DNA of 64,000 nucleotides from an uncultured Fibrobacter sp. (GCA_946414075.1 CAMKNA010000003.1:1-64000), one strand, 5' to 3'; positions 11,505 to 38,252 are shown, counted from the first letter of the stretch. Numbers and translations: made by a program. The notes: generated by a model not told the origin, from the sequence alone.

Positions 11505-11664
11505 AGGATTTCTCCAAAAGAAAATTTCATCTGGGAAAAAGCGGAAAGGGGCCCGCCACGAAGACTGTCAAACAGTACCTGTTCTTAAATCCAGGGCGAA
11601 AGATAAATAAAAAAGCCTGCCTGTAAAGAGCTCGCGCATGAAAAAATTTTTAACAAAATAATCC

Positions 11665-11700
11665 GGCAAGTTTCCCCTCAAAAAAACGTCTATACATGTA
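11665..11700 (+). promoter_or_regulatory. Rpn promoter block, copy 1
   Basis: A block starting GGCAAGTTTCCCCTC, then seven A, then ACGTC and TATACATGTAG. The same block recurs upstream of the third Rpn gene (38174-38211, opposite strand) with 26 identical bases followed by an almost identical TATACA box. The TATACA hexamer is the likely -10 element. The transcribed leader holds GC-rich hairpins (GATGGGG...CCCCGTC). Confidence 0.5.
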
Positions 11701-11757
11701 GATGGGGGCTGTTTCCCCGTCTGCTATCGCGGGGGCGTTCCCGACAATAAAGACACC

Positions 11758-21172: not shown

Positions 21173-22612
21173 CTAGTCGCTGGGACCATTGCTGGGGGTG
21201 GGGATGACTAAATCAATCGTATTCGTTTCGCCCTTTTCGTTGTTCTTACCGCCACGGGCGACTTCCAGGAACAATCTCATTGCCTTGACATTTTTCTTTT
21301 CTTTAATGGGGACTCCCCCAAGCGAACCATCGGCCATTAAGTACGGCAACTTTTTAAGCCGCAGATCCTTGATGGTAATGGCTCCCTGCGATGCCAGGGG
21401 CGAATAGAAAGCGAAGGTAAAGGTGATACACGCATTGTCAACAGTGTCCGGAACGGTGAACCGCATAACCCTATCCCCATCGCCATTTTTTGCATCTAGT
21501 GGCGGGAAGAACATAAAGTCGTCTATCAACACCAGTCCATTTTTTTTTGGTTTCCCCCCGGTTTCAAAGTTCCGGAAACCTACGGACATGTGGTCCCTTC
21601 CAGGAATGAACAGAAGGCTCCTGTCAGAAGCGCTGGGCGGCAACGTCATGCTGAAAGAAAGTTCGTATTCAACATTGCGCACCAATCGCAGATGCCCCCC
21701 TTGGGTTTCGCAATAAGAGCTCCACGAAGCTACGGGGTTATTGACGGGGTTTGTGGCCACGAGTTGGTTTATCTTACGATCAACTTCGGGCAACAGGTGG
21801 TCGTTGGCTGGTCCAGGTTCGTTGGTCCAGTTCGAGAAGAACGGTCCATTGGGGCCGCCTATCTTCTGTTCTGCGCCGCTGGCTCCAATTTCGCCCAATC
21901 CGTTTGCCACGCTCACATTTTCGTAGCCTGCTTCTTTCCGGGGAATAAGGCTGAAGGTTTCGCCGTCAGAAGAAGGAAATAGCTGTTCCATGTTGCCCGG
22001 CTTGACCGGGTCCAACTTGAATGTTGTCACTCCAGACGCGATTTCTACCGCATGAGCCTTGGCATCCTCTCTCGATTCGTCCGTGGAACCGCATTCGGAG
22101 GCTCCTGCAATCGTTCGACAAGTACGCTTCAAAATGTTGTTTTCCACATACCAGTGGGCCTCTTCCACCGCCTGGTAGCGCCCATCGTCGTCGAATCGAA
22201 CATACCGGATGAAAACGGAATCAAAGGCTGCGTATTTCGTAGGGCAGTTTGCGTCATCTTTAGAACATATTTCAAAAGACGAGTAATCCTTCTTGTCGGC
22301 GTCGGCATTGGCAGGATCCATGTACACTTCAGAGCGAAGGGTACCAAACTTGTCGCCCCTTTTTTCGCCATTTGCAGCTTGTGCATCTCCGGATTCTTTC
22401 GAATTTTTCGAGCCAATCTGCGAGATATCCGACTTCAACAGCATGGCCACATTCTCCGACTCCTGGTTGGCGCGGAGTATGTTTTGCGTACGCACCCGGA
22501 ACTTGGTGGAGTCAGAGAACGCACGGCCTGCGATAATGACGATAGAGGCCAAAAGGCCCATGTAGACCAAGAGTTCCATGAGGGTGAAACCCGCTTTCTG
22601 CCGCCTATTCAT
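21173..22612 (-). CDS. PilW-like minor pilin, operon 1
   Basis: 479 residues with a class III prepilin leader (MNRRQKAG cut before FTLMELLVYMGLLASIVIIAG, Glu5 present), typical of PilW/GspJ, the third subunit of the pilus-tip complex. It is about twice the usual length: after the pilin part comes a C-terminal beta domain (YELSFSMTLPPSASDRSLLFIPGRDHMSVGF ... CITFTFAFYSPLASQG). The ATG overlaps the preceding stop as ATGA, and the giant gene follows 9 bases later. A close homologue of the same layout is at 27620-29044. It would sit between PilV- and PilX-like subunits in the tip. Confidence 0.8.
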   Translation of the reverse strand: MNRRQKAGFTLMELLVYMGLLASIVIIAGRAFSDSTKFRVRTQNILRANQESENVAMLLKSDISQIGSKNSKESGDAQAANGEKRGDKFGTLRSEVYMDPANADADKKDYSSFEICSKDDANCPTKYAAFDSVFIRYVRFDDDGRYQAVEEAHWYVENNILKRTCRTIAGASECGSTDESREDAKAHAVEIASGVTTFKLDPVKPGNMEQLFPSSDGETFSLIPRKEAGYENVSVANGLGEIGASGAEQKIGGPNGPFFSNWTNEPGPANDHLLPEVDRKINQLVATNPVNNPVASWSSYCETQGGHLRLVRNVEYELSFSMTLPPSASDRSLLFIPGRDHMSVGFRNFETGGKPKKNGLVLIDDFMFFPPLDAKNGDGDRVMRFTVPDTVDNACITFTFAFYSPLASQGAITIKDLRLKKLPYLMADGSLGGVPIKEKKNVKAMRLFLEVARGGKNNEKGETNTIDLVIPTPSNGPSD

Positions 22613-23217: not shown

Positions 23218-23793
23218 CTATATCCCTGTCCAGAGACAGTCTTCAAAACTCATGAGCGGCGAAAAGTTGTTTTGATTGCTGGCTTTGGCGGCAGCCCCGC
23301 GAATTTCGCGGTTCCCATACTGCACGGCGAAGAACCCCTCGGTAGGCGCAGCCGAAAGCCCTTGCTTGGGAATGAATTCCGCGCCGTTGGTCGCAAAGTT
23401 TGTGTTTCCGATGGCTTCGGCATGGCAAGTCGCACCGGATATGACTCTGCAAGCGCCCTCCAGTATAAGGGTGTCAATCGCACCGGTCGTGTTGGAACAC
23501 GAACCGTTATAGGCAATGAGCAATTTGGCGTTGTTCGGGTCCACCTTTACGCACAGTGTCGCGCTCAGACGGCGGGATTCGTTGGCGGTCCACTCCATGA
23601 AGGAGGCTATGTTGTAGGCGGCGTCCTTGGTACGGGCGTTGGCGATGGCGCTCTGGAACCCCGAGACGCCCATGCCCGAGAGAATGCCCATGATGGCGAT
23701 AACCAGCACCACTTCCGAGAGCGTCATGCCGGCCTTGCCATGCACATCCCGCATAAAACGGCAGTTCTTTAACATGTTCAAAATTCTATTCAT
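23218..23793 (-). CDS. GspH/FimT-like minor pilin, operon 1
   Basis: 191 residues from the ATG at 23793. The prepilin site is KAG before MTLSEVVLVIAIMGILSGMGVSGFQSAIANARTKDAA, like GspH/FimT pilins that start tip assembly. The head has two Cys pairs. The start is uncertain: the ATG at 23754 would give a shorter leader (MRDVHGKAG), but the DNA upstream is conserved with operon 2 at codon level, and none of the candidates has a strong ribosome-binding site. First gene of operon 1, with a structured leader. Confidence 0.78.
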   Translation of the reverse strand: MNRILNMLKNCRFMRDVHGKAGMTLSEVVLVIAIMGILSGMGVSGFQSAIANARTKDAAYNIASFMEWTANESRRLSATLCVKVDPNNAKLLIAYNGSCSNTTGAIDTLILEGACRVISGATCHAEAIGNTNFATNGAEFIPKQGLSAAPTEGFFAVQYGNREIRGAAAKASNQNNFSPLMSFEDCLWTGI

Positions 23794-23881
23794 AAGCAAA
23801 AAACACCCTACGACCAAAAACTGGGTGGGCACACCTCCCTAAGCCCGGAAACCCTGTTTCCCGTCCGGTCTAAAATAGCTT
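23640..23881 (-). repeat. Inverted repeat arm, pilin promoter and start, left copy
   Basis: Promoter region, leader and the first codons of the GspH-like pilin are repeated in opposite orientation at 26416-26660 with only scattered differences. The pair brackets the Rpn2-recombinase segment and makes a long inverted repeat on which inversion or gene conversion could act. Confidence 0.8.
23794..23881 (-). promoter_or_regulatory. Pilin operon 1 promoter and structured leader
   Basis: On the minus strand GCTATTTTA (likely -10 region) is followed by GGACGG, the hairpin GGAAAC-agg-GTTTCC, and a G-rich stretch ending GTAGGGTGTTTTTTGC just before the ATG. The copy at operon 2 keeps the hairpin stem and the flanking bases but changes the loop and the middle section, as expected of a functional RNA or operator. 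Confidence 0.45.
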
Positions 23882-23997
23882 TTTTTTTCAAAAAAAGTTC
23901 AAAATATTTTACAATGGGGCCGAAAACGGCGTAATTTTACAATTTAGGGCAAAAATGTGTGACTGGAGGGCGGAAATACGCTTATGGACAAGGAAAC

Positions 23998-24020
23998 GGG
24001 GTACTGCGGGCGGGTACCCC
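23998..24020. other. Hairpin in the gap between Rpn2 and pilin operon 1
   Basis: GGGGTAC / GTACCCC stem with a 9-base loop. The rest of 23882-24057 is AT-rich and then GC-rich non-coding DNA in which no further feature was recognised. Confidence 0.3.
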
Positions 24021-24057
24021 GCCGTTTTCTACGCGAGTGGTGCGTTAAATAACGATG

Positions 24058-24084
24058 CCCCCGCGGATTCACTTTCCACGGGGG
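24058..24084 (-). terminator. Terminator of Rpn2
   Basis: On the minus strand CCCCCGTGGA / TCCGCGGGGG stem with a 7-base loop; only a weak T-run follows (ATCGTTATTT). Confidence 0.55.
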
Positions 24085-24225
24085 TTGAATACCTCGCTAG
24101 GGAGCCTTGCTACACTTTGCTAGGAGATTCCCTGGCTTTCTCTGCAGCGATCTTCCGGGCTTTCTCGATCAGGTCGCTTGACACGCCAAGGGACTCCAGA
24201 ATACCAATCCCTTCAGCGCGACCTT
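24058..24225 (-). repeat. Rpn tail repeat, arm 2
   Basis: Inverted copy of 12724-12893: same CTTGGCGTGTCAAGCGA coding stretch, same AGGAATCTCCTAGCAA before the stop, same AGCAAGGCTCCCTAGC after it, and a related terminator stem. The two arms bracket pilin operon 1. Confidence 0.75.
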
Positions 24226-25072
24226 CAGCGCGTCCTTCAGCGCGTCCTTCTGCACGACCTTCTTCAAGACCTTCGGCACGGGCGTGCTTCTTCTCGACAT
24301 AGAGCTCGTAGTTGTGGTCGCTCATTCTCATAGCCTCGCTTACAAGGAATTCCTCTGTAAAAATACTCAATTTCGCCTTTTCTTGCAAGAGCGCAAACAG
24401 GGAATCCTCCGGAACGGGTACGGGACACTCGTTGTTCAACCCGTCGAACAAGCGAAGCCACTGAGCAAGCCGGCTGTTGTCGTTGCCATATTTGCCCTTC
24501 AGGAACTTGGGGATTTCCACCAGGGTGACAGTTTGTTTTTTGTAAAATTCCTCGTTTTCCTGATTTTTTAGGCGAATGCAGTGCCTATAGTTCTTCGACT
24601 CGGGGAACGCATCGAACATTTGGAGACTTATGAGATTGATCTCGCGGAGACTGTATTTTTCGCCCCTGACCCGGCTCGATACCGTGTGATTCGCCACATA
24701 GAGCACTAGGCGATCCTTAAACGAGGGGTCGTCTATGTGTTGCACTTCGAGAACTATGCGGTTGCGAACCTGGTCCTCGGCCACGATGTCCGAGATGATG
24801 TTCTTGCTGAAGGGGGCTATCACGGATGGATTCACGAAGGTGACTTTTTCGATGCAGTCTCCTCCGTCTAACTTTAGGACGGCGTTCAGGAAGTCTACGG
24901 TGATTTTCTCGTTCTCGGGATTCCCGAAAAGTAACTTGAAAATGACATCGTTATAGATATACATGTATTTATGGCGGGCTCGGTATTTTGCAATGCATGC
25001 GTGCACATCACCGCCGTTCTTGTGTGTTTCGCCAATGTCTTTGAGCATGGCTGCGTACTGATCTCTGTTCAT
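24110..25072 (-). CDS. Rpn-family PD-(D/E)XK nuclease / putative transposase (Rpn2)
   Basis: 320 residues from the ATG at 25072, chosen for its GGAGGAAACA ribosome-binding site; longer upstream readings have no such signal. The core has the Rpn start (YNDVIFKLLFG, about 40-50) and the catalytic set Asp95, Glu109, Gln111. It belongs to a different Rpn subgroup from Rpn1 and Rpn3. The C-terminus carries AEGR repeats and a tail (ESLGVSSDLIEKARKIAAE) almost identical to Rpn1. It is divergent from the recombinase gene and lies downstream of the pilin operon 1 promoter region. Likely a DNA endonuclease involved in recombination or phage defence. Confidence 0.82.
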   Translation of the reverse strand: MNRDQYAAMLKDIGETHKNGGDVHACIAKYRARHKYMYIYNDVIFKLLFGNPENEKITVDFLNAVLKLDGGDCIEKVTFVNPSVIAPFSKNIISDIVAEDQVRNRIVLEVQHIDDPSFKDRLVLYVANHTVSSRVRGEKYSLREINLISLQMFDAFPESKNYRHCIRLKNQENEEFYKKQTVTLVEIPKFLKGKYGNDNSRLAQWLRLFDGLNNECPVPVPEDSLFALLQEKAKLSIFTEEFLVSEAMRMSDHNYELYVEKKHARAEGLEEGRAEGRAEGRAEGRAEGIGILESLGVSSDLIEKARKIAAEKARESPSKV

Positions 25073-25117
25073 TGTTTCCTCCGATAGGATGCGGGCAGAG
25101 TTTGCCCAATGTGAAAA

Positions 25118-25140
25118 AAACACCCTTTTTGAGGGTGTTT
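25118..25140 (-). terminator. Hairpin with T-run in the Rpn2 leader
   Basis: AAACACCC / GGGTGTTT stem followed by further T on the minus strand, 46 bases upstream of the Rpn2 ATG. No minus-strand gene ends just upstream of it, so it may act as an attenuator of Rpn2. A second small stem (GGGCA / TGCCC) lies between it and the start codon. Confidence 0.4.
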
Positions 25141-25363
25141 CGGAGGTATTCTGAACGCTCGGGTAGAAGATAGAATAGTCGTGGATTTTGGCAAGATGAG
25201 AATTGTAAAAGATTTGTAAAAGAATCATGGGACGACAGTTGTGACACGCTATGCACACATAAATGAAGATTGAACTCACTTGCATTAGGACAAAATCAAT
25301 CCACGCGTGTATCTTAGTAGCGCCATTCCCGTGAGTGCGGATAATTTGTTTAGGAGGTGATTT

Positions 25364-26344
25364 ATGGAATGGAAGCGTTTGTCGGTGGTACAGCGGCACA
25401 AAAGTCGCGGGATAAAAACCTGGTATCTCCGGGAAAACTCCGGCGGGGTGATTTCGTACAGGTCGCTGGGGACAATTTGCAAGAAGGTGGCCGAGGAATG
25501 CCTGCAGAGACTTCTGGTGCTTCGCTTTGCCATGCCCGGAGAGGTGCTGGAGAGGGTGCCCATGGAAGGGGCTGTGCGGGAGTTTCTGGAACGGCCAAAC
25601 CTGAAAATGGGCAGCGTGGAACAGTACAGACGGATTCTGGAGCATTTTTCGAGATGGTGCAGATCCCAGCAGGTGGGAGACCTGCTTGCCATTGACGAGC
25701 GGTTGGCGCGGAAATACTACGCGTCGCTCCGGGGAAAGTCGGCGTGGCACTGTTGCCGCGTATGCGGGTGCTTTTTGAACTGGGTATATCGGGAGCACAG
25801 GGTGGAGCGCGTTCAGCCATTCAAGTTCGTGGACTTTAGGCGAGTAGCCAAGGTGGGGAGGGATTCCTGGAGCGTGAAGGAGGTGGACCGCATCGTGGCG
25901 GCGGCGCCCACGCGAGAGATGCGGATGCTCTGGGCGCTAATGGCCTATGCGGGGCTCCGGATTCACGAGGCGGCGGGGTTGCGGCAGTCCGATATTCTGG
26001 GAGACAAATTCCAGGTTATCGGAAAGGGCGACAAGTTCGCTGTGCTTCCCATAAGTGGGCGGCTGAAACGGGAACTGGCAAGGTTCGGAGGCCTAGGGGA
26101 CGGACTGAAAATCGACAAGCAGAAGTCCATACGGGAATTGAAGAAGGTTTGCCTGAAGCTCGGGATTACGGGCTGGGCGGCAAATCATAAGTTCCGGCAT
26201 AGCTTTGCAACAAATCTCGCGGCGGCAGGGTGCCCGGTAGCTATCGCCATGCGGCTTTTGCGACACAGTTCCAGCGCCATGACGCTGGATGTCTATACCC
26301 ATATCATGCCTGCTGACATGAGGGAGTGGGCGGAGAAGGTCTAA
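25364..26344 (+). CDS. Tyrosine recombinase (phage-integrase/XerC-Rci type)
   Basis: 326 residues. Core-binding domain at about 55-160 and catalytic domain at about 170-326 with all expected residues: Arg199 (AGLRIHEAAGL), Lys near 221-224, His275 and Arg278 (HKFRHSFATNL), His301 (LLRHSS) and nucleophile Tyr311 (YTHI). The first 35 residues resemble short Arm-type sequences (TWYLRENSGGVISYRSLG). GGAGGTGATTT gives an ideal ribosome-binding site. It stands between two inverted pilin operons, a setting like the Rci recombinase of plasmid shufflons. Codon use is more GC-rich (GCG, CGG) than in the pilin genes, which suggests separate origin. Recombination between the sites at 13259, 36281 and 36981 is inferred, not shown. 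Confidence 0.85.
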   Translation: MEWKRLSVVQRHKSRGIKTWYLRENSGGVISYRSLGTICKKVAEECLQRLLVLRFAMPGEVLERVPMEGAVREFLERPNLKMGSVEQYRRILEHFSRWCRSQQVGDLLAIDERLARKYYASLRGKSAWHCCRVCGCFLNWVYREHRVERVQPFKFVDFRRVAKVGRDSWSVKEVDRIVAAAPTREMRMLWALMAYAGLRIHEAAGLRQSDILGDKFQVIGKGDKFAVLPISGRLKRELARFGGLGDGLKIDKQKSIRELKKVCLKLGITGWAANHKFRHSFATNLAAAGCPVAIAMRLLRHSSSAMTLDVYTHIMPADMREWAEKV

Positions 26345-26415
26345 CCGAGCAAAAAACATGCCCAAATAATGCACACAATGCGCTGATTCCTTCATTCTAA
26401 AGGGAAAATACATAC

Positions 26416-26503
26416 AAGCTATTTTAAATCGGACGGGAAACTGGGTTTCCGGGTTTAGGGAGATGTACACGCCCCATTTCTCGTCGTAGGGTGTTTTTTG
26501 CTT
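26416..26503 (+). promoter_or_regulatory. Pilin operon 2 promoter and structured leader
   Basis: Same layout as at operon 1: AGCTATTTTAAAT, then GGACGG, hairpin GGAAAC-tgg-GTTTCC and GTAGGGTGTTTTTTGC before the ATG. The middle section differs (GAGATGTACACGCCCC here), while the borders are kept. Confidence 0.45.
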
Positions 26504-26660
26504 ATGAATAGAATTTTGAACATGTTAAAGAACTGCCGTTTTATGCGGGATGTGCATGGCAAGGCCGGCATGACGCTCACGGAGGTAGTGCTGGTCGTCG
26601 CCATCATGGGCATTCTCTCGGGCATGGGCGTCTCGAGTTTCCAGAGCGCCATCGCCAACG
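26416..26660 (+). repeat. Inverted repeat arm, pilin promoter and start, right copy
   Basis: Opposite-strand counterpart of 23640-23881; shares the promoter, the hairpin leader, the TTTTTTGCTTATGAATAG start region and the pilin N-terminal codons. Similarity fades upstream of the promoter, next to the recombinase stop. Confidence 0.8.
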
Positions 26661-27091
26661 CCCGTACCAAGGATGCCGCCTACAATGTGACCGCCTTCAT
26701 GGAAAAAACGGCGAACGAAGCACGCCGGTTGAGCACCACGCTGTGCGTGCAAGTGGCTTCGGGCAACACAAGAAAATTGTTGACCTTCAGGTCCTCCTGC
26801 CCTGCGAATGCCGGACAGGATACAAGAATTGACAGTCTCGTGTTGGAAGGCGCGAGCAGAATCATTAACAGCGATGTTCCCAGTGCTTCGCTCATTGGTA
26901 GCGTCAATTTCGCCTCTACCGGTGCCGAGTTCACCCCCAGGCAGGGCCTTTCTGCGGCACCCAACAAGGGATTTTTTGTGATTCGGTATGGCAATAGTGA
27001 TGTCTATGGAGCTGCGTCCAAGCAGGACAAGCAGAACTCGTTCGTGCCCTTATTGAAGGTCTCGACCGACACTGATTGGGCCGGGATCTAG
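26504..27091 (+). CDS. GspH/FimT-like minor pilin, operon 2
   Basis: 195 residues, homologue of the operon 1 gene at 23218-23793. The leader and helix (KAG before MTLTEVVLVVAIMGILSGMGVSSFQSAIANARTKDAA) are nearly identical; the globular head keeps the pattern (EGASRIINSD, FASTGAEFTPRQGLSAAPNKGFFVIRYGN) but has changed in many positions. It should start tip assembly of a second pilus version. The start codon is equally uncertain as in operon 1. Next gene 10 bases downstream. Confidence 0.78.
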   Translation: MNRILNMLKNCRFMRDVHGKAGMTLTEVVLVVAIMGILSGMGVSSFQSAIANARTKDAAYNVTAFMEKTANEARRLSTTLCVQVASGNTRKLLTFRSSCPANAGQDTRIDSLVLEGASRIINSDVPSASLIGSVNFASTGAEFTPRQGLSAAPNKGFFVIRYGNSDVYGAASKQDKQNSFVPLLKVSTDTDWAGI

Positions 27092-27101
27092 GAGAGGGAC
27101 G

Positions 27102-27623
27102 ATGCACACAGAATGCGTAAACCCAACAGCAAAGCGATTCCGCCGCAAACGCGGGATCGGCATTATGGAAATCGTGATCGCGACAATGGTGCTCGGGATT
27201 CTCTATATGGCGGTGTCCAACCTACAGAAGGGTAACCGCGAAGCCCTGTTGCGCATTCGTGGGCGCGACGGAGCCATCACCGTGGCCCAAAACATCATTG
27301 ACAGCCTGGGAACGCTCGGAGTTTCGCATTTTTCGGACATTGCTCTTCCTAAGGACGAATTTGGAAACTTGCTACCCCTGGACACCATTAAGGTGGATAG
27401 GATTTGGCTTGCACAGGCTGGCCTGGGTCAGGATAGCATCGTCGTTCCGTACACAGCCCTGGTCACAGTGTCTCCCGACAATACCTATAGGGCGGCTACT
27501 ACATCCATGCTTCTGGGCGAAGACAGCCTACTCCATGTGTTTGCTAAGCAGGTGAATGTGACCGTCAAATGGCCTTTCAAGGGCGACACCATGTCCATCA
27601 CCGTCTCGGGGGTAATCAGATGA
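27102..27623 (+). CDS. PilV/GspI-like minor pilin, operon 2
   Basis: 173 residues; basic leader RFRRKRGIG cut before IMEIVIATMVLGILYMAVSNLQKGNREALLRIRGRDGA, the same as the operon 1 partner. The head (about 55-173) is shorter and lacks the Cys pairs of the operon 1 copy. It ends with a similar strand (VNVTVKWPFKGDTMSITVSGVIR). AGGAGAGGGACG gives a strong ribosome-binding site, and the stop overlaps the next ATG (ATGA). Confidence 0.8.
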   Translation: MHTECVNPTAKRFRRKRGIGIMEIVIATMVLGILYMAVSNLQKGNREALLRIRGRDGAITVAQNIIDSLGTLGVSHFSDIALPKDEFGNLLPLDTIKVDRIWLAQAGLGQDSIVVPYTALVTVSPDNTYRAATTSMLLGEDSLLHVFAKQVNVTVKWPFKGDTMSITVSGVIR

Positions 27624-29044
27624 TTAGGCAAAAGAGCGGTTTCACCTTGATGGAGCTCCTGGTCTACATGTCCTTGTTGAGCGCCATCGTTTTGATTGCG
27701 GGGCGGGCGTTCTCCGACTCTACCAAGTTCCGCGTGCGCACACAGAACATGCTCCGAGCCACACAGGAGGCAGAGAATGTGGCTGTGCTTCTCAAGTCTG
27801 ACATCTCCCAAATGGGCGCGAAAAGTTCGGTGAATGCAGGAGCTCCCGCAGGTGGCGTCTCGGTTGGCGACAACTTTAGCCTTATCTACGATTCCGTGTA
27901 CATTGCGCCGGCGGCCGCAACAAAGGATTCTTCTTCTTTCCTGTTGATTTCTACGGAGAATTCGGATTTTGACAGCCTGTTCATCCGCTATGTACGCTAC
28001 GACAACCAGGGACACTTCGTCGCAGTGGAGGAAGCCCACTGGTATGTAGAAGCCAATGTCCTGAAACGGGCCTGCCGTACACTCGCGGGAGAACCCGACA
28101 CGGCCATGTGCAAGAAAGAGACTCGAGCCAGCGCCAAGGACCATGCGGTGACTGTCGCTTCGGGAGTGAGACAATTCAAGGTACTTCCGGCTAGACCAAG
28201 CGCGCTTGTGGGCGAAGAACAGCTGTTCCCGCCGTCTGGCGGGGACGAATTCAGGCTTGTCCCTAGGAAAAATGACGAAGGGTATGCGAATCTGTATGTG
28301 GCAAACGAGTCTGGCATAGCCAACAGCGGAGGCACAGGACAGAGATTAGGCGGATCCTCCGGACCGTTTTTTTCAAATTACGATAATGCGAACCAGCAGA
28401 TTCTGACCACTGGGCAAAAGGTGAACGAGCTTATTGCCATCGATAACGACAATAGCGATTCCCCGTGGCGCAGTCTCTGTGCGGTTCGGGGTGGCAACTA
28501 CAACGGACGCATCCGCCTGTTGCCGAAAACGGAGTACGAGCTTTCCTTCAATATGCCGCTACCTTCAAGCAACACGGATAGGAGCCTCCTTTTCGTACCA
28601 GGAAAAGATCACATGTCAGTTGGGTTCCGGAGCTATGAAACCGGAGAGCCCCCCAAGAAAGGCGAAGGTACGAACACGGTGCAGCTGATTGACGACTTTA
28701 TGTTCTTCCCGCCACTAGATGCCAACAGGGGTGACGGAAGGCGAGTCATGCGCTTTACTGTTCCAGACACCATAGACAAGGTGTGCATCTCCTTTACCTT
28801 TGCATGCTATTCGCCTCTGGTGTCGCAGGGGTCATTGACCATCGAAAAGCTGAAGCTTCGTAAGGTGCCGACCGCGAACTACGATTTCCAGGAAGGTTAT
28901 ACTCCGAACGATGTGGACAAAAAGAATATCAAGGCAATGAAGGTGTTCTTGCAGGTTGCCCGTGGCGGAAAGAACGGACACAAGGGCGAAGCGGACTCTC
29001 TCATTGTAGTGGTTCCCACCCCAAGCAATGGACCACGCGACTAG
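27620..29044 (+). CDS. PilW-like minor pilin, operon 2
   Basis: 474 residues; leader MIRQKSG before FTLMELLVYMSLLSAIVLIAGRAFSDSTKF, Glu5 present. The start at 27620 is taken because of the ATGA overlap and the canonical leader. The C-terminal extension (ELSFNMPLPSSNTDRSLLFVPGKDHMSVGFRSYETG ... CISFTFACYSPLVSQG) matches the operon 1 homologue and is likely a carbohydrate-binding-like sandwich added to PilW. It is followed 9 bases later by giant gene 2 with AGGAGGG. Confidence 0.8.
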   Translation: MIRQKSGFTLMELLVYMSLLSAIVLIAGRAFSDSTKFRVRTQNMLRATQEAENVAVLLKSDISQMGAKSSVNAGAPAGGVSVGDNFSLIYDSVYIAPAAATKDSSSFLLISTENSDFDSLFIRYVRYDNQGHFVAVEEAHWYVEANVLKRACRTLAGEPDTAMCKKETRASAKDHAVTVASGVRQFKVLPARPSALVGEEQLFPPSGGDEFRLVPRKNDEGYANLYVANESGIANSGGTGQRLGGSSGPFFSNYDNANQQILTTGQKVNELIAIDNDNSDSPWRSLCAVRGGNYNGRIRLLPKTEYELSFNMPLPSSNTDRSLLFVPGKDHMSVGFRSYETGEPPKKGEGTNTVQLIDDFMFFPPLDANRGDGRRVMRFTVPDTIDKVCISFTFACYSPLVSQGSLTIEKLKLRKVPTANYDFQEGYTPNDVDKKNIKAMKVFLQVARGGKNGHKGEADSLIVVVPTPSNGPRD

Positions 29045-29053
29045 GAGGGAAAC

Positions 29054-32000
29054 ATGAAGTTTGGAATGAAAAACGAGAAACACGCAATGAGAAAATCCGG
29101 TGTATCCATAATCACCGTGCTACTGTTCATGTTGGTGGCCACCATCGCTGCCACGGCCACCTACAAGTGGATTACCAGTGAAGGCCGTTCTAGCGCAAGC
29201 CGCCTGCGGCAGAGCGAAGCCTACCAGAGTGCCATTGCGGGTATCGAGAATACCCGAGCCTGGATGACATTCCACGCCAACGATGTGGGCGCGCTTGTCC
29301 GTCAGTATTTGGTGCAGTCTACGCCGCGCAAGCCCATAAATCTGGACAGCCGTCTCCGTTCTTTTCAGCGGGCGGGCCAGGACTACCATGTTTGGCTTAC
29401 AGGCGTGAATGTCGAGAATTCCTCTTTTAAGTTGAAAATTCTTTCTAGTGGTGAATCCCCCAATGGGTCACGCCACAACGAAAGCGCCATCTTGAATGTG
29501 GACGGGCTTTACCAGGTCACGATTCCACAGATACAGCACCATTCAACCATCAAATTCAACTACGCTTATTACGGCGGCTCCTATAAATCCCGTGGAGCAG
29601 TTACAATGACATCTGGGGTAGTAAACGGGAACTGGGAAGGAAACCCGCCAACCACAGAAAGAAACTGGGTTGTGACGGGAAATGTTACACTATCCGGAAA
29701 TGACCTGACAGTGGGACAGACAGCCTGTATTGGTGGAAACGCATCCATTCAGAACGCGGGTATCACGACGACGGACCTCTATGTAGGGGGGGATTTTAGT
29801 GGAGTTATCAAGAAAGCTTCTGGCAATGTTTACTTTAACGGGGATGTCAAGCAAGAACAAACGGGAAAAATGAATATTGATGGGAGCGTCACCCTAAACG
29901 GTTTTTACGAGTCGCTCCAAGACAACGATAGCCATGGTTCCTTGATAAAAGGGAACCTTTGTGTCGATACTGCAGGAGCGGTCGTTGCTAGCGGGATTGC
30001 AAATGGTGTTGGGGGTACATTCCAGGTGAACGGGAATGTGTGGATGCCAGGTTCCCAGAATGTGTGGTATGGTTCGATAGATAGGTCTGGTTGCATGTGC
30101 AACATATATTCGAAAGCATATCCCACTGAAGGTCAGCTGCTTCGGACTGAGTCCTGTACAGGAAGTTGGGATCAATATCCAGAAAAGGGGGTGCTCATTG
30201 GCTGCGCGAGTAAACGACTGACCGCATCCAGTGACGACATAAGCTCTATTGAGTCTTCCTATGGCAAGATTATTCTCGGTGATTCATCATCGAAAGTCTA
30301 TATCCGCGGTGCCATACGGTCTTCAGCATACAACAGCAACTATGCTAATAGCAACGGCACCAATCGAAAAATCACTGAAAACAGCAACTACAAGAAAAAC
30401 TGCTCAGCGAAAATTTCCTCGAAAGATTATTGGAAAAAAGCGGTGTATCCTGAAGTGGGAGAAAAAAGATTTCCATCTGATGAAAAAGACATTTGTGGAA
30501 GTTGGAGCGAACTTGACTGGCCTCTTGGAGCTAGTGCCTATCAGTCGGTGTATACAGATGGCTGGGGTCCATGGGGTGGAAATTCCTACTGGCCTTACAA
30601 ACCAGCGGTCACAGAAGCCAGCGACAAGTATTCAATATTTTCCAGTGGTTCGGATGTAGTAACCTTTGGCCTATACAACCTACAGAATTGGAAACAGTTT
30701 TCTGGAGATTATACTTATGGGAGAAGAACAATCCATTTGGAGTGTACAGACTATTGCAAACCAGGTCCTGGAGAATGGTATAACTTCGGTTCCGGCGATG
30801 TTCACTCAAGGGATTTTTCCCTTGTCCAAAATGAAATAAACAACAGGTTTGTTTCGCCGACACAGATTGGGGCCTACATGGTGGGAGGAGACATTTTCTA
30901 CAATCCGATTACCGGCGCCTACAACGGCTATAATTACGACATGGACGCTGGAAAGGCGACTGGGTCCCCATACTGCAAGAAAAACAGTAGCGATACATAT
31001 CGCCCGACTTGCGGCACGACTCCATGGTTCAAGTCCAGTGGCACAGTGTCAAGTTCTACGGATCTCGAAAGGGAATTCACTTGTGCCGAAAATGTGGAAA
31101 GCGACTGTCACGAGATTTGGGGGGACCCTGCCGATGGTTGTGACGATTCTCATTATTTTGTTGCCGACCCCCTGATTACAGCCTACAACGACTACGAGCC
31201 CTATTCAAGGAATGGTTGCGCCAACAGCATCCACAATTGGAACAAAGACACCTTTGACAGCCTTCTCAACTGGTGTTGGGATAAGAACATCAAGGACACT
31301 TCTCTTCGTAAAACGAATCTTTACAACGACTACCTGGTGGTGCACATTACAGGAAGCGCCCCTGGAGACAACTACGACGCAAATTCACGAGAGGGCCTTA
31401 AAGGCAAGTTCATCATCATCGTAGACAATATTTTGAAGGCAAATGCAATACCCACCACAGCCGACGCAGATTCAAGGATTTTCCTTTTACTTGAAAAAGG
31501 TGCCGTAAATTTGCAAGGTGATGCGAACCATGTCTTTATTTACCATAAAGAAAGCAATGGCCGATCTAACAGCATCGACCTAACGGGAACGCTATACTCG
31601 CCGGCGGCAGCCTGTGCTACAAATGATTTTAACGGCGGAAAACTGACCTACGATTCGCTCTTGATCCAAGACTTGACCGATGCAGGTATCATCTGTCAGA
31701 GCGACGGTAACGGAGGATGCGCCCCTGCTGACACCTCAGAAGGCGAAGGCGGCAGTGGTCCTACAACTGCAGCCGTCGTCGACGGCGGCAAGGATGGCTA
31801 CTACATCTCTATGGCCCCGCAATTGAGCGTATCTGTAGAGACCCAGTACGAAGCCAAAGAATCTGTACCCGCAGGCGGCAATACCGTAGCTGCCCTAAAC
31901 CCTTCGTTTATTGTATTGCCCAGAGTCATCCACTTACCGAGAGACCCCTATGGTACACTTTCTGATTATTACAATGTTATTCCTTTGAATGGTTCCACTC

Positions 32001-35000
32001 TTAAACAGGAAGATGTCTCGGTTCAGTGCCAAACTGGACTTCCCACATCGGGCAATCTCTACAGCGAAGGCGTTCTATTGGACGAAAAGGTCTACAAGTG
32101 TGAAGCCAGCGCAACCAACTACGCCAAGGTCCCGTTCTGGGTCGCCGTCAGCAAGACCCTGAGAGGAACTCCGCAGGTTTCGTTCGTTGAAGTCGTGCAG
32201 GAAATGTCCCCCACGGGACACGCCGAGATACACGCAAACATTCCTGCTCTCACCAGCGGTACAAAGGTCCTTATCGCGTGCCCCGATATGCCTGAAGGCT
32301 GGAGCTATACGATGAACGAGGATTACGACCCCCATATCACAAGCAACGGAACTTGCTCATTCGATTTCGGCGGAGCAAGCGGAGAGTTGAAACTATTTGA
32401 CATCAACACCAATGCGGCGAGCAACGGGACCGTCGTATTCCAGCTGATGCCCAGTGAGGGGTACGCCATATCGAGCCCCTTCACCTCGGAACTCCATGTG
32501 GCAAACCTGGCCTATGTCAGCCGTGTGGCTCCTTCAGCAGAAGATATCGACGCCTATTGTGAAACGTACCCCGAGGACTGCCCTGAAGCAGGCCACCGTG
32601 GTGATGATGAATGGCCGAACTGCATAAGGTCTGGTACGCCGGACACCATCAGCTGGGTAAAGCCTTCGGCAGGTCTTGTCGCTACTGTCGACACCAACGA
32701 TTCATGGAGCGTCTCCGCAGGAGGCGCCGGGCTACTGACTCTCATCGAGGACAACCCCATTGAGGGCTGCGTGGTTATCATCCCAATGGATTCCAATACT
32801 CTTAGCCGAGACACCATCAGGGCAGAGCGCACCTATACGCTCAGGGCTATCGCCAAGGCGAAAAAGAGCTCTATCAAGGTGGGCTTTACAGGCGAGGTAG
32901 GGGCAGGAAAGAATCCATATGTAGTCATCAACACGGACACCCACAGCAAAACTTGCTACTACGACGATTACAAGGACAGTATCCCCAAAGCATGTACCAT
33001 GGACCTGTACAACGGCGAGACTGTAAATGTCTTTATTGAGAAAAGTAGTGGCGAAAACAAGAACTTCAACTATTGGAAATGCGAAAACAACGGGGGCAAT
33101 ACATGCCCCACAACAGAGCCCATCACCAGCGGTGAGTACCCGGACTTTACCATAAAGGACAACAATGCCATTATATACGCTCACTTCGGCGAGGTGGATG
33201 AGCACTGCTTCTTTGACGAATTCAAGCAGGGCAGCGTGGAATGCGGTGGAGAGAACACGAAATATTGCATCGACAAGTGTGGCAATGGGGCAAACGATGT
33301 ATGCGTGAGCGCCATCACTGGAGGAAGCTACGCTAACTCCAGGTGGCACCTGGTTGAAGGCTCTCTAAATGACATCGAAGATTCCTACGAATGCATATCC
33401 ATAGACAACGCGGTCTCCAGAAGCAGCAACCGTTCGAATCGCGGTGCCGTCAAGGTCATGAGTACCACGAGGCCGGGTCTCCGCGGAACCCTCAAAGCCC
33501 TGGTGCAGCTGCCCATGGCCACATCGAGTTATGGGAAAACTTCCGCGAACATCGCAAAATCCGGATTCCTGCTCCACTCCAATGCCGCCGGGACTGAATT
33601 CCTGATGTTGAATGTGTTCGCCAATTCCTCGGGCTACTTGGAGGCAAATCTTTGTCCCAATGGCGGGAGCGAAAACTGCATCTCTACGACACCCAAAAGA
33701 AACGGTTCCGAACTTTCAGTGTCGCCTTCCTCCATGGTGATGGTGGAGGCCACGCTTTCAGACTCCAACACGCTGGAATTGACCGTGTTCTCCGGCAATT
33801 ACTATGGAAAGCCGAACACATACACCAGTTCGATTAAGCTGAGCGATCTTCCCAGCGCTCTCAGAGACCGTGCCCACGAATACATCGGATTCAGCATGGC
33901 CGACCCGAACTTCAAGATTTACGGTATCGGCTGGAGCAGTAACGATTACGGCGCCGACAAGTGCTGGGATACCTATCCGACGGTCAAGTGCTCCTTCGCT
34001 GCCGTGGCAAGTGGCGGAGTTGTCCCCACCGGGACCAATGTGGAACCCTGGCTTGGACATTCCGGGTGGTTCGACAGCAAGAGCTGCACACCTGAGTATT
34101 ACTACTACAATGGCACGGATGCGTGCGGTGGGCAGGCAGGTACGGAAAGTGAGTGCCCGAGCACTGGGTACTACTTTAGCAATGATGGTGCCGGGCAGCA
34201 TGGCTACCGCGACATCAACGGGGTGGATGTCAAGGCGGCCAGGGCCTGGTTAAGCTGCCTTAATGCCGACGAGCAGGCGGTAGCCTGGTCTGCGGGTACA
34301 GAAACGCTCCGGGCCCATTGTGGCTTGTTCTGGACAGGTTCGCTCACGGAATGCGTGAACCATACTGACTTTGGAACACTCGCCACCGTCGGCACCGGGT
34401 TGGATGGGACTCTCACCCTAGTTGGCTCGGCTAACCTGCGCGGCTCCAAGCTGAACATCTCTCTCGAAAATCCGAACAGCAACGAAGTAGAAGTGTGGCT
34501 CATTAGCGCAAACGCCACCTGGGGCGCAGACGACTTCGCAAGCACCCCGGTACGGTTCACCGGTACCAGCGCAAGCTTTGATGTAGTGGAAGCTTTCGCC
34601 ACAGGCGCTCAGGGCTTTGACCCTGAGCATGTGAAGCAAGTAGTGGTCAGGAACCATGGCGACTACAGCGTGACCAATGTCTTGGTCTCCGCCGCTTGTA
34701 AGAACGCCGTGGGCATTTCAAACTGCTCAGTTTCGTACAACGCCGTGGCGGGCAAGTGGGAGGTCTCAGCTGATGTGAGCAACAGCAGTAAAGTTTCCTC
34801 CTATAAGGTGGAAGGTGAAGTAAACTCCACAGCCGTGGTTTCCGCGACCTCCCCCTCGGAGTGGGCAGCAGATCGGGCAACCTGGAAAATAACGGATAAT
34901 CCATATGGCTCTTACCAGGGCGCAACATTTGAATTTACAGCGTCCGTCACCAACACGAACAACCAAACCTTCTCGACAGGTTGCGGTAGCGTGACCATTG

Positions 35001-36565
35001 GAACGACTACCTGTAGCCACCTTTCAGCAAGCAATATCGCAAGCGGCGCTGATTGGCCAGCATTCAACTTCGAGCTGAACGAGTGCCCGCAAGGCAGTTG
35101 CGATTACGAGATCTTTTTTGGTGAAGGGACAAGTCTAAGCCTACTTGGGCCTAGCGACTGTACCACGGCGACATGCTCCGGCTCTGGCTCAGGGTCCCAG
35201 ACAAGGACCAAGAGCGGGAAAGCCGGGGAATGCACAACCAGTGGAGGCTGTAGCTACTCTTACATGGTGCGTAGTTCCAACGACGACAAACCGTTTGCTC
35301 CTTGCACTACCTCGTTTGTCGTGAGACCGCTGTTAAGCAGCTCCAGCGTGGTAAGCAGCAGCAGCGCACCGCCAAGTAGTAGCTCCGCACCTCCGAGCAG
35401 TAGTAGTGCGGCAGGAATAACGGCCACATGTAAGATATTCGACAATAATGGCTCTAGCACATCATCTGCCTTTACGGAAACAGGTAACATGAAATTGAAG
35501 GTTACCCATAACGCAACGACAAATACGGAGGCACGATTTGCGGGAACTGTGGCGGACTGGAACGGAAGTGCAAATGTCGATGTTGTAAAAACTAATGAGA
35601 GTTTCTGGCTAAATGCGAATCAGGTCATGGAAAGAGGGTTTACAGCTCCTGTAACTGCGGGTACATATACCTACACAATATCTTTGGGCGGCAATACCCT
35701 TTGTTCAGCTACCTTGACTACTTCTCAAGCATTGACCTGTAGTGCTCCCGCACAGGTCCCATTGGGAGACTCATTCACGTTGACTGGAACTTACAGTGGA
35801 ACAAGTTGTTCAAAGGGATATACACGCAACATGTCAGGAACTGGAACTGAATATCCTGGCGATTTGGCTTGCAATAATTTATCACAATCGTTCACCGTGA
35901 CATCAACGACTCCAGGTAATTATAATTACTTGATTGGTGTTGACGGTTCTCCGAATGCAACGTGTACAAAAACCGTTCAGGTTGTGCGAACGAAACCTAC
36001 TTTTGAATGTAAAACGGGTTTAAAAGCAACCATTGGTGAATCAAATAACGTTATCATCACATTAAAGAACATAACGCAATGCGGTGGTGAAACTAGTAAT
36101 TGGTGTCACTCCAGCATTACGGGGGACGATATCAGCGTGCAAAATGGGATTAATGTAGGCGATGGTACGGTGAATCTTGGTGCCTTCACAGATACAGGAA
36201 CTGATGGGGTAAGCAAGAGTTACACCGTCACTCTTGAAAATTCAATCGGTGTGAGCGATGCACAGACCTGTAGTGTGGAGTTTACCGCAGGTTCCAGCAA
36301 CACAATGGTTGATTTTGTCTATAACGGAGATCATTATGATTTTAGTGAAGGAACGACATATGAAATCCAATCATGTACGGGAAGTACGAATATGACTTGT
36401 GCTGCCGCAGGAGGAGGAAAGAAACTATTTGTCGATAACGTGGAAAAATATGAGACTCCTGACTGGATGACAATTGGTCAATATCAAAACATGAATTGGC
36501 AATGTTCTGTTGGTCAAATCGTAACCGTCACAGGTGGAACCATGCGTTGTAAAATGCAATGGTAG
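29054..36565 (+). CDS. Giant PilX-like tip pilin-adhesin 2
   Basis: 2503 residues, homologue of giant 1. The N-terminal part is nearly identical (MRKSG then VSIITVLLFMLVATIAATATYKW), then a beta-helix-like region (VGGNASI ... IDGSVTLNG), the InlB-B-like repeat (NYWKCENNGG ... YAHFGEVD) and the lectin-like sandwich follow in the same order. A Ser/Pro linker (VVSSSSAPPSSSSAPP, about 2100) typical of secreted Fibrobacter-type proteins is present here but not in giant 1. The last module before the switch (PTFECKTGLKATIGE ... CSVEFTAGSS) matches giant 1; the final 88 residues (2416-2503, ending CKMQW) do not. Base composition becomes more AT-rich towards the 3' end. The tail would be exchanged by inversion of 36283-36996. 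Confidence 0.8.
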   Translation: MKFGMKNEKHAMRKSGVSIITVLLFMLVATIAATATYKWITSEGRSSASRLRQSEAYQSAIAGIENTRAWMTFHANDVGALVRQYLVQSTPRKPINLDSRLRSFQRAGQDYHVWLTGVNVENSSFKLKILSSGESPNGSRHNESAILNVDGLYQVTIPQIQHHSTIKFNYAYYGGSYKSRGAVTMTSGVVNGNWEGNPPTTERNWVVTGNVTLSGNDLTVGQTACIGGNASIQNAGITTTDLYVGGDFSGVIKKASGNVYFNGDVKQEQTGKMNIDGSVTLNGFYESLQDNDSHGSLIKGNLCVDTAGAVVASGIANGVGGTFQVNGNVWMPGSQNVWYGSIDRSGCMCNIYSKAYPTEGQLLRTESCTGSWDQYPEKGVLIGCASKRLTASSDDISSIESSYGKIILGDSSSKVYIRGAIRSSAYNSNYANSNGTNRKITENSNYKKNCSAKISSKDYWKKAVYPEVGEKRFPSDEKDICGSWSELDWPLGASAYQSVYTDGWGPWGGNSYWPYKPAVTEASDKYSIFSSGSDVVTFGLYNLQNWKQFSGDYTYGRRTIHLECTDYCKPGPGEWYNFGSGDVHSRDFSLVQNEINNRFVSPTQIGAYMVGGDIFYNPITGAYNGYNYDMDAGKATGSPYCKKNSSDTYRPTCGTTPWFKSSGTVSSSTDLEREFTCAENVESDCHEIWGDPADGCDDSHYFVADPLITAYNDYEPYSRNGCANSIHNWNKDTFDSLLNWCWDKNIKDTSLRKTNLYNDYLVVHITGSAPGDNYDANSREGLKGKFIIIVDNILKANAIPTTADADSRIFLLLEKGAVNLQGDANHVFIYHKESNGRSNSIDLTGTLYSPAAACATNDFNGGKLTYDSLLIQDLTDAGIICQSDGNGGCAPADTSEGEGGSGPTTAAVVDGGKDGYYISMAPQLSVSVETQYEAKESVPAGGNTVAALNPSFIVLPRVIHLPRDPYGTLSDYYNVIPLNGSTLKQEDVSVQCQTGLPTSGNLYSEGVLLDEKVYKCEASATNYAKVPFWVAVSKTLRGTPQVSFVEVVQEMSPTGHAEIHANIPALTSGTKVLIACPDMPEGWSYTMNEDYDPHITSNGTCSFDFGGASGELKLFDINTNAASNGTVVFQLMPSEGYAISSPFTSELHVANLAYVSRVAPSAEDIDAYCETYPEDCPEAGHRGDDEWPNCIRSGTPDTISWVKPSAGLVATVDTNDSWSVSAGGAGLLTLIEDNPIEGCVVIIPMDSNTLSRDTIRAERTYTLRAIAKAKKSSIKVGFTGEVGAGKNPYVVINTDTHSKTCYYDDYKDSIPKACTMDLYNGETVNVFIEKSSGENKNFNYWKCENNGGNTCPTTEPITSGEYPDFTIKDNNAIIYAHFGEVDEHCFFDEFKQGSVECGGENTKYCIDKCGNGANDVCVSAITGGSYANSRWHLVEGSLNDIEDSYECISIDNAVSRSSNRSNRGAVKVMSTTRPGLRGTLKALVQLPMATSSYGKTSANIAKSGFLLHSNAAGTEFLMLNVFANSSGYLEANLCPNGGSENCISTTPKRNGSELSVSPSSMVMVEATLSDSNTLELTVFSGNYYGKPNTYTSSIKLSDLPSALRDRAHEYIGFSMADPNFKIYGIGWSSNDYGADKCWDTYPTVKCSFAAVASGGVVPTGTNVEPWLGHSGWFDSKSCTPEYYYYNGTDACGGQAGTESECPSTGYYFSNDGAGQHGYRDINGVDVKAARAWLSCLNADEQAVAWSAGTETLRAHCGLFWTGSLTECVNHTDFGTLATVGTGLDGTLTLVGSANLRGSKLNISLENPNSNEVEVWLISANATWGADDFASTPVRFTGTSASFDVVEAFATGAQGFDPEHVKQVVVRNHGDYSVTNVLVSAACKNAVGISNCSVSYNAVAGKWEVSADVSNSSKVSSYKVEGEVNSTAVVSATSPSEWAADRATWKITDNPYGSYQGATFEFTASVTNTNNQTFSTGCGSVTIGTTTCSHLSASNIASGADWPAFNFELNECPQGSCDYEIFFGEGTSLSLLGPSDCTTATCSGSGSGSQTRTKSGKAGECTTSGGCSYSYMVRSSNDDKPFAPCTTSFVVRPLLSSSSVVSSSSAPPSSSSAPPSSSSAAGITATCKIFDNNGSSTSSAFTETGNMKLKVTHNATTNTEARFAGTVADWNGSANVDVVKTNESFWLNANQVMERGFTAPVTAGTYTYTISLGGNTLCSATLTTSQALTCSAPAQVPLGDSFTLTGTYSGTSCSKGYTRNMSGTGTEYPGDLACNNLSQSFTVTSTTPGNYNYLIGVDGSPNATCTKTVQVVRTKPTFECKTGLKATIGESNNVIITLKNITQCGGETSNWCHSSITGDDISVQNGINVGDGTVNLGAFTDTGTDGVSKSYTVTLENSIGVSDAQTCSVEFTAGSSNTMVDFVYNGDHYDFSEGTTYEIQSCTGSTNMTCAAAGGGKKLFVDNVEKYETPDWMTIGQYQNMNWQCSVGQIVTVTGGTMRCKMQW
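36281..36298 (+). repeat. Tail-junction site in giant gene 2
   Basis: TTTACCGCAGGTTCCAGC (FTAGSS). Core TACCGCA (36283-36289) with arms GGAGTT and GGTTCC, partly inverted. The last 16 bases are identical to the inverted copy at 36981-36996. Confidence 0.7.
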
Positions 36566-36622
36566 TAGGTTTAAGAAAATAATCGTCTAACATTATATAT
36601 TCTTTCCCTTACTAATCAAAAA

Positions 36623-36646
36623 GACTCCCCTTTGAGTGGGGAGTCT
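36623..36646. terminator. Shared bidirectional terminator between convergent tails
   Basis: GACTCCCC-tttga-GTGGGGAGTC hairpin, A-rich on the left and TTTTT nearby on the right. It follows giant gene 2 and also the minus-strand tail, so it would serve the expressed gene in either orientation of the segment. It resembles the terminator of giant gene 1. Confidence 0.65.
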
Positions 36647-36695
36647 AGGTTTTTGAGTATTGTGTTATGGTCAATAGTTCTCTATTTTAAATGAA

Positions 36696-36996
36696 TTACC
36701 ATCCAAAGTAACATTTTACATCGCCACCATCTCTTCGAGATGCAGTGTGGCATCCTGTGTACTTTTTATTTCCATCCAAATCAACTGTAATTTCTACAGT
36801 TCCCCACCCATGCGAGGCTTCTGTTCCATCTAAAGTAACATGACCATTCGCATTATTGCCTGATTCACATCTGATATGGGCTTGTGATTGCCAATCATTT
36901 TGAACGGGGTGTTCATCAAAACAAAATTCCGTGCCACTGGGATTAGTGAATTCCCAAACATCACTTGCGATTGTCGTTCCGCTGGAACCTGCGGTA
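36696..36996 (-). other. Silent alternative C-terminal tail of the giant adhesin
   Basis: A 94-codon coding stretch follows the exact junction motif (TAGSS) and ends GGDVKCYFGW-stop. It has no own start, promoter or pilin part; upstream of the motif the reading runs into the Rpn3 terminator region. Length equals that of the giant 1 tail (94 codons). It has Cys near positions 20, 38, 77 and 90 and aromatic residues like the other tails (final GGTMRCKMQW in giant 2). It could be a silent shufflon-type cassette or, less likely, the relic of a deleted third giant gene. Confidence 0.65.
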
Positions 36997-37002
36997 GGTT
37001 CC
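36981..37002 (-). repeat. Tail-junction site of the silent cassette, with perfect dyad
   Basis: On the minus strand GGAACC-TACCGCA-GGTTCC: two 6-base inverted arms around a 7-base core, the form of a tyrosine recombinase core site. The bases TACCGCAGGTTCCAGC are identical to giant gene 2. Confidence 0.65.
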
Positions 37003-37158: not shown

Positions 37159-38127
37159 TTATTTACCCAATGCCGCCAATTTTGCCTTGAATTCGGAAAT
37201 CTGTTCGGGTGACAGGTCCATGCCCTGCAGCACGGCGATGGCATCGCTGTGCCCCTTAGATTCGCCCTCCCTGCGGGCACGCACCTTCATCGCGGCCAAG
37301 TGGTCCAGTTCTTCTTCCGTGAAAACCATATCTCGTGCCTGTTCCTTGATAAGCTTGTCCGACGCGTTTTCTACCAAGATGCGCTTGATTGCCTGCGAAA
37401 TCACGTCGTCGCCGAAATCCGGAAGGTCGTCGGCCCTGCCCGCATGCTTGAGCAGGTACAGCCAGCGGTCTTCGGTGGTCCGGACGGAATCGAGCGTCTT
37501 GTTGAACCGCGTCAGGTCATACAAAATATACTTCACCTTGTCGGTAATTGTCAACCCCTTCTCGTTACGGATGGCCCAGGTGCCGCGGTAGCTGTCCTGT
37601 TGTTCAACTGCAAAGTCGCATATCCAGATAGCGTAGGTGGGCGGGATTTCGTAGCGACGTTCTTCGCGACGGGCGCGCTCTTCGTCGGTAAGGTCCTTTT
37701 GCGGGTCCTTGAAAAACTCGTGATTCCACTCGTACTTGCTCTGGAGCAAGAAAGCGCTGTGTTGCAGCAGAATGCGGTCGATGAATCGACTGTGCTTTGC
37801 CTTTTGCATCTCGATGTTCACGCTTAGCCCGTTGGAAGTGGTGGCACGGATATCGAGCCTAAAGGATTTTACCTGCGGGAAGATGATGTTCACCTCGGTG
37901 TTCTTGACGGTGACAGAAGTAATCCGGTTGTCCCCTTCCAGATGAAACACCCCGTTCAGAAAACTCACAAGCGCCTGTTCATCGCTCAGGAACGCCTTAA
38001 ATCCGGTGTCGTAGAGCGGGTCGATGTAGGTCCGCTTTTTGATTTCTTCGTAGGTCCTCTGCACCCAGAATTCCTGCGAGGTAGCGATGGTGAACTCGGG
38101 GCTGATTTCGTTGTTTGTATTATCCAT
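37159..38127 (-). CDS. Rpn-family PD-(D/E)XK nuclease / putative transposase (Rpn3)
   Basis: 322 residues, same subgroup as Rpn1 (TYIDPLYDTGFKAFLSDEQALVSFLNGVFHLEGD against the matching Rpn1 stretch). Catalytic set Asp92, Glu106, Gln108. The C-terminal tail (LQGMDLSPEQISEFKAKLAALGK) lacks AEGR repeats and differs from Rpn1/Rpn2. Its promoter block is almost identical to that of Rpn1. A conserved internal Met (DMVFTEEEL) aligns with the internal start candidate of Rpn1. The start has no obvious ribosome-binding site. Convergent with giant gene 2, as Rpn1 is with giant gene 1, and flanked by REP-like palindromes. Confidence 0.85.
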   Translation of the reverse strand: MDNTNNEISPEFTIATSQEFWVQRTYEEIKKRTYIDPLYDTGFKAFLSDEQALVSFLNGVFHLEGDNRITSVTVKNTEVNIIFPQVKSFRLDIRATTSNGLSVNIEMQKAKHSRFIDRILLQHSAFLLQSKYEWNHEFFKDPQKDLTDEERARREERRYEIPPTYAIWICDFAVEQQDSYRGTWAIRNEKGLTITDKVKYILYDLTRFNKTLDSVRTTEDRWLYLLKHAGRADDLPDFGDDVISQAIKRILVENASDKLIKEQARDMVFTEEELDHLAAMKVRARREGESKGHSDAIAVLQGMDLSPEQISEFKAKLAALGK

Positions 38128-38173
38128 ATCTATGATCGGGTGCGTCCCGTTAAACGGCAGGGTGGAAAGGCCC

Positions 38174-38211
38174 TACATTGTATAAGACGTTTTTTTGAGG
38201 GGAAACTTGCC
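38174..38211 (-). promoter_or_regulatory. Rpn promoter block, copy 2
   Basis: Minus-strand counterpart of 11665-11700: GGCAAGTTTCCCCTC, seven A, ACGTCT, TATACAATGTAG. Conservation of 26 bases in a row while the genes themselves have diverged implies a functional or recently exchanged promoter or operator. Confidence 0.5.
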
Positions 38212-38252
38212 CGAAAATTTTGTTTACAGTGCGGATTTTACAGATGAAAGGA

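Follow-up and report, generated by a model that had tools for sequence, protein, structure and literature searches.

We found that the 3′ end of a giant minor-pilin gene of an uncultured Fibrobacter sp. is probably an invertible cassette with two states, nested within a larger pilus locus that is probably phase-variable as well. The DNA analysed (the window) is a stretch of 64,000 nt from a Fibrobacter-genus metagenome-assembled genome (G000) of 2.31 Mb and 82% completeness. An invertible tail cassette is the best reading of the comparative sequence data, and we infer live inversion of the window's own tail. The recombining sites, the silent tail and its relatives in other species are described first, then a second invertible segment that lies between two giant-pilin operons.

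The gene in question, giant gene 2 (29054-36565, plus strand), encodes 2503 amino acids as presently oriented; sequences related to the giant N-terminus are present in 76 of 80 Fibrobacter genomes, including all 40 of high quality. Near its 3′ end is the 16-bp sequence TACCGCAGGTTCCAGC (36283-36298, plus strand), for which the first-pass annotation had reported an inverted copy at 36981-36996 (minus strand); the two are indeed complementary at 16 of 16 positions, with 682 nt between them. The 2.31-Mb assembly holds no other copy within one mismatch, and its remaining similar sequences differ at two positions. The left, in-line site is followed by tail A (88 residues; 36299-36565, plus strand) and the right, inverted site by the silent tail B (94 residues and a stop; 36696-36980, minus strand). 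Both tails are read from the motif as TAGSS in one frame and both finish with tryptophan and a stop. That they converge on one terminator was also correctly seen: both face a bidirectional terminator-like hairpin (36622-36646) that scores on both strands. Inversion in silico keeps the frame and turns the 2503-residue product into one of 2509 residues that ends ...CSVEFTAGSSGTTIASD...KCYFGW and a stop, so the expected exchange of an 88-residue for a 94-residue tail holds. The minus-strand frame of tail B has no stop just upstream of the motif and stays open up to a GTG at 37280, but "start-less tail" is the right term for it, because its natural context in a related genome (G026) is the 3′ end of a giant gene. 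A perfect dyad, GGAACCT-N5-AGGTTCC, covers the right site (36984-37002), and recurs in G099 and nearly so in G062. No contig with this tail in the opposite orientation was found in the window's own assembly, a point against the invertible reading.

Judged by sequence, the silent tail B is a C-terminus in use elsewhere. In G026 the same body runs directly into tail B, the junction lying precisely on the motif (GAGTTT(A/G)CCGCAGGTTCCAGC/GGAACG). The two copies of tail B differ at four positions in the 294-nt coding part (three changes nonsynonymous and one synonymous, too few to demonstrate that selection acts on the silent tail), and the similarity breaks down just a few bases past the stop. 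At the protein level, tail B has 97% identity with the G026 giant's in-line C-terminus and 82% with that of G035; relatives of tail A are found at giant C-termini of several species. About 130 bp of body upstream of the motif are likewise near-identical between the window and G026, whereas the last 699 body residues as a whole are 37% identical. Since tail B and this body block are both near-identical, the window's proposed inversion splits a stretch that is contiguous in G026, a genome that has the tail site and lacks tail A, a second site and an orthologue of the locus recombinase. The simplest account would be recent transfer, in either direction, at a time when tail B was joined to the body, with the inversion in the window lineage coming afterwards; independent transfers of the body block and of the tail B block are possible.

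Transfer bears also on a different explanation, in which tails are replaced over evolutionary time, arriving by horizontal transfer and recombining at a conserved linker; one such event would then have left the inverted tail B as a displaced remnant. Transfer does occur, as species whose proteins are otherwise about 37% identical have almost identical tails and an almost identical adjoining body block, and 73 of the 76 giant-bearing genomes yielded no silent tail. We nevertheless think this explanation unlikely: RecA is not expected to recombine on 16 bp, the breakpoint coincides with the motif on either side, the stretch that is contiguous in G026 is split across the window inversion, and in two more species this position likewise holds an inverted C-terminus, in one of them with a perfect 61-bp in-frame repeat.

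These and other relatives support the invertible cassette. In G067 the same motif is fused to another tail. Contig C57 of G099 has, at the same right-hand site, an inverted tail (tail C) that resembles neither A nor B, and its right flank matches the window's over 66 identical bp, motif included; the in-line partner of tail C lies in an assembly gap, where a search found no body on the P side (the flanks P and Q are described below). The G067 and G099 junctions show that the motif is the exact point from which tails diverge, in the in-line as well as the inverted position, and with G026 these genomes bear out the expectation that relatives would swap tails at precisely this point. The orthologous locus of G062 (UBA4223) has the perfect 61-bp in-frame inverted repeat, one copy in the giant itself, at codon 1975, the other 1.8 kb past its stop, bounding a 3.8-kb segment (locus L164, G062:C1, 8711-12531) with alternative C-termini of about 670 vs about 495 residues. 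This repeat and the window's right site have CAGGAACCT-N7-GTTCCAGCG in common, the seven central bases differing. In a scan of 109 distinct giants, the window and G062 alone had complete cassettes, with a partial one in G099, and so low a number counts against the invertible reading; the other 13-16-bp repeats look like chance, and no silent tail arrays were found in the other giants.

Chance might equally be suspected in the window, where the repeat is just 16 bp long and comes from a single assembled metagenome genome. That an inverted repeat arose fortuitously beside an open frame unrelated to it, or that the assembly is at fault, is however extremely improbable, given the protein identity of tail B to the in-line G026 C-terminus and the same architecture in the independent assemblies of G062 and G099. 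Markov-1 simulations (last 700 nt of the gene vs the following 1000 nt) produced a 16-bp inverted repeat in 2 of 3000 trials; on these and the comparative data the chance repeat was rejected.

The second switch is an inner segment (23871-26426) that lies between two divergent giant-pilin operons, carries a recombinase gene and is bounded by inverted copies of the 11-bp AAGCTATTTTA, one at its X end, toward operon 1 (23871-23881, minus strand), and one at its Y end, toward operon 2 (26416-26426, plus strand). Both ends are strongly conserved between species. The two kinds of flank, P and Q, have in common only the 11 bp and a few adjacent bases, and the operons travel with their flanks, so it is the segment itself that is inverted at AAGCTATTTTA. 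X is joined to P and Y to Q in G017, G062 and G085 (the last as two contigs overlapping at their ends), and G099 has the opposite arrangement, X with Q and Y with P. In UBA4223 one contig joins X to P and another opens with 13 nt of Y on the same P flank (228 bp identical), so that sample has both inner orientations, in one strain or two. Like an invertible promoter, then, the segment is found inverted at inverted repeats between species and in both orientations within one assembly.

Both flanks are P-type in the window genome and in G067. The window has here a 282-bp inverted repeat (23600-23881 and 26416-26697, 91% complementary) that extends over the 5′ ends of both operons and is absent in G017; it looks like recent gene conversion between the operons. 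With so long an inverted repeat at the P-type flanks of the window genome, homologous recombination could also invert the segment. By eye, a conserved GAACT-N~19-TATTTTA at the X end, its -10 inside the repeat, suggests a candidate outward promoter. Since a generic sigma-70 scan called no outward promoter at X, we infer rather than assert operon choice as the most likely function of the segment.

The first-pass annotation likened the tail segment to plasmid shufflons, which a tyrosine recombinase inverts, and overlooked that such an enzyme is encoded in the locus, within the inner segment (25364-26344, plus strand). This 326-residue Xer-like protein matches PF00589 at 56.5 bits (curated cut-off 27.1, E 4e-15) and has the catalytic motifs of tyrosine recombinases (AGLR, HKFRH, LLRH and YTH). 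It ends 15 residues past the catalytic tyrosine, without the C-terminal extension of Rci, and no close Rci or plasmid relative of it was found. Its orthologues (87-92%) are confined to G017, G067, G085, G099 and G062, in each case beside giant-pilin operons. Three further tyrosine-recombinase genes lie elsewhere in the window's genome, among them a second non-Xer one on contig C10; no serine recombinase was found in the genome. Among more distant proteins, G011 encodes a tyrosine recombinase (about 34%) between two divergent giant-pilin genes (G011:C2 51991-52590; about 1992-2612, minus strand, in L051), possibly an independent switch, and a viral contig from IMG/VR encodes a 34% relative of the locus recombinase (L235, 28-996), as does, likewise at 34%, Fibrobacter sp. 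UBA1765 (L218). No tail junction was found in viral contigs.

The presence of the enzyme in the locus thus stands, its action on the tail sites being putative. In sequence the tail sites TACCGCAGGTTCCAGC bear no relation to the inner sites, with no obvious common core, and for this reason the recombinase of the locus may be confined to the inner switch. A variant compatible with the cassette, to which we give a little less than an even chance, has it flipping the inner segment alone, the tails being inverted by XerC/D, the C10 non-Xer recombinase or an Rpn nuclease. Besides the unrelated sites, this variant draws on the further tyrosine recombinases of the genome, on the Rpn genes that flank the tails, and on G026, where a tail site occurs without an orthologous recombinase. 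Against it, cassettes (counting the partial one of G099) were found only alongside orthologous recombinases, in 3 of the 6 genomes that have one vs 0 of the 70 other giant-bearing genomes, an association with a hypergeometric probability of about 3e-4 by a hand calculation that ignores relatedness; the six genomes may be related, which would confound and weaken it.

The surroundings are those of a type IV pilin operon. Upstream of giant gene 2, operon 2 has three minor-pilin-like genes (26498-27091, 27102-27623 and 27569-29044; together 26498-29044, plus strand), and the N-terminal methylation motif (N_methyl) is matched above the cut-off of 21.2 by 27569-29044 (23.0) and slightly below it by 26498-27091 (20.3). 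Operon 1 is built similarly, with a pilin-like gene (21173-22612, minus strand) upstream of the paralogous giant gene 1 (12974-21163, minus strand; 2729 aa). At the homologous tail junction giant gene 1 has a degenerate tail site with two mismatches, encoding TAASS (13259-13274, minus strand), and after it its own, other tail. The first-pass annotation had called the adhesin PilX-type; giant gene 1 reaches 16.8 bits for PilX_N against a Pfam cut-off of 25.5 and giant gene 2 has no match, so the term can denote likeness and not membership.

Genes for Rpn/PDDEXK_2 nucleases adjoin the tail cassette (37159-38127, minus strand) and the tail of giant gene 1 (11758-12837, plus strand), at the outer ends of the locus, and a third such recombination-promoting-nuclease-like gene (24110-25072) lies inside the inner segment. 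Further out, an inverted repeat of about 52 bp (11652-11701 and 38173-38224; 90% over 52 nt) brackets the whole 26-kb pilus locus, and in G017 the locus is inverted relative to the side with a SulP-type gene.

Structure models of tails A and B are all-beta and confident (pLDDT 92 and 82). Fold searches with both tails gave no match at E < 1e-3 and no confident ligand-binding homologue; tail B has a TIG match that is weak, yet above cut-off. The pilin context, together with work on pilins and fibre attachment in Fibrobacter (PMC4668043), would be consistent with an adhesin role for the giant protein and with altered binding upon exchange of its tail.

The cassette invites comparison with the PilV shufflon (R64/IncI, Rci), which works by a swap of alternative C-termini (PMC11852207, PMC5430464). 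As there, alternative start-less C-termini in an inverted segment are bounded by inverted repeats and lie in frame with the constant body of a type IV pilus minor component. R64 shufflon sites have a 7-bp core and a conserved 12-bp right arm with a variable left arm (PMC11852207); the window's two tail copies have 16 conserved bp and left sides that differ from one another, an arrangement that may or may not correspond, the recombinase acting on them being putative. Unlike the shufflon, the Fibrobacter locus is chromosomal and has at the gene a single two-state segment with two full sites, rather than several segments, in a protein of about 2500 residues and with one common bidirectional terminator. 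Its recombinase lies upstream of the operon and not beside the segment, and is Xer-like, with neither the extra C-terminal domain of the Rci family nor a close plasmid relative. Of the shufflon likeness first proposed, then, in-frame exchange of tails at the motif was upheld, and neither multiple segments nor an Rci-family enzyme was found; in its working the cassette resembles a minimal PilV shufflon on a chromosome, without belonging to the Rci family.

The nearest chromosomal precedent is in Moraxella, whose enzyme, Piv, is of the IS110/IS492 type and not a tyrosine recombinase. Two type IV pilin genes there undergo phase variation through a chromosomal site-specific inversion system (PMC4073114, citing Marrs 1988, 1990). 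It is the major pilin that switches in Moraxella, in contrast to the C-terminus of a giant minor-pilin-like protein and a separate, proposed operon-choice switch in Fibrobacter. The inner segment resembles Salmonella hin and the invertible promoters of Bacteroidales in the proposed flipping of a promoter between flanking operons, and hin also in having the recombinase inside the segment; it differs from these systems in that the enzyme is a tyrosine and not a serine recombinase, and in that the proposed choice, by a putative promoter, is between two paralogous giant-pilin operons.

In the mechanism that we propose for the nested cassette, a site-specific recombinase would invert the 714-bp segment between both 16-bp sites, fusing the constant body of 2415 residues (ending ...VEFTAGSS) to tail A or tail B, and either reading would terminate at the common bidirectional terminator. 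Inversion of the inner segment at AAGCTATTTTA would turn the candidate outward promoter between the operons, and the two inversions combined would yield a clonal population showing alternative pilus adhesin tips. A broader scheme, which we regard as rather doubtful, is a combinatorial tip-diversification locus in which a single Xer-like recombinase, or a few enzymes, would be responsible for inversions nested at three scales (operon choice, exchange of C-termini of about 90 to about 670 residues, and flipping of the entire 26-kb locus) and tails would also spread between species. An enzyme that acted on both unrelated types of site would be an invertase of a new kind, with dual specificity.

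In the herbivore gut, Fibrobacter ranks among the leading degraders of fibre. Pilins are believed to take part in its attachment to this substrate (PMC4668043). Our literature search found no paper joining Fibrobacter with phase variation and invertible DNA, and the system offers clear, testable sites. The arrangement described here suggests that cells diversify the protein tip that they present to their surroundings; if true, the cells of a clonal population would differ in surface specificity, with several kinds on display, whether for attachment or to escape phages or hosts.
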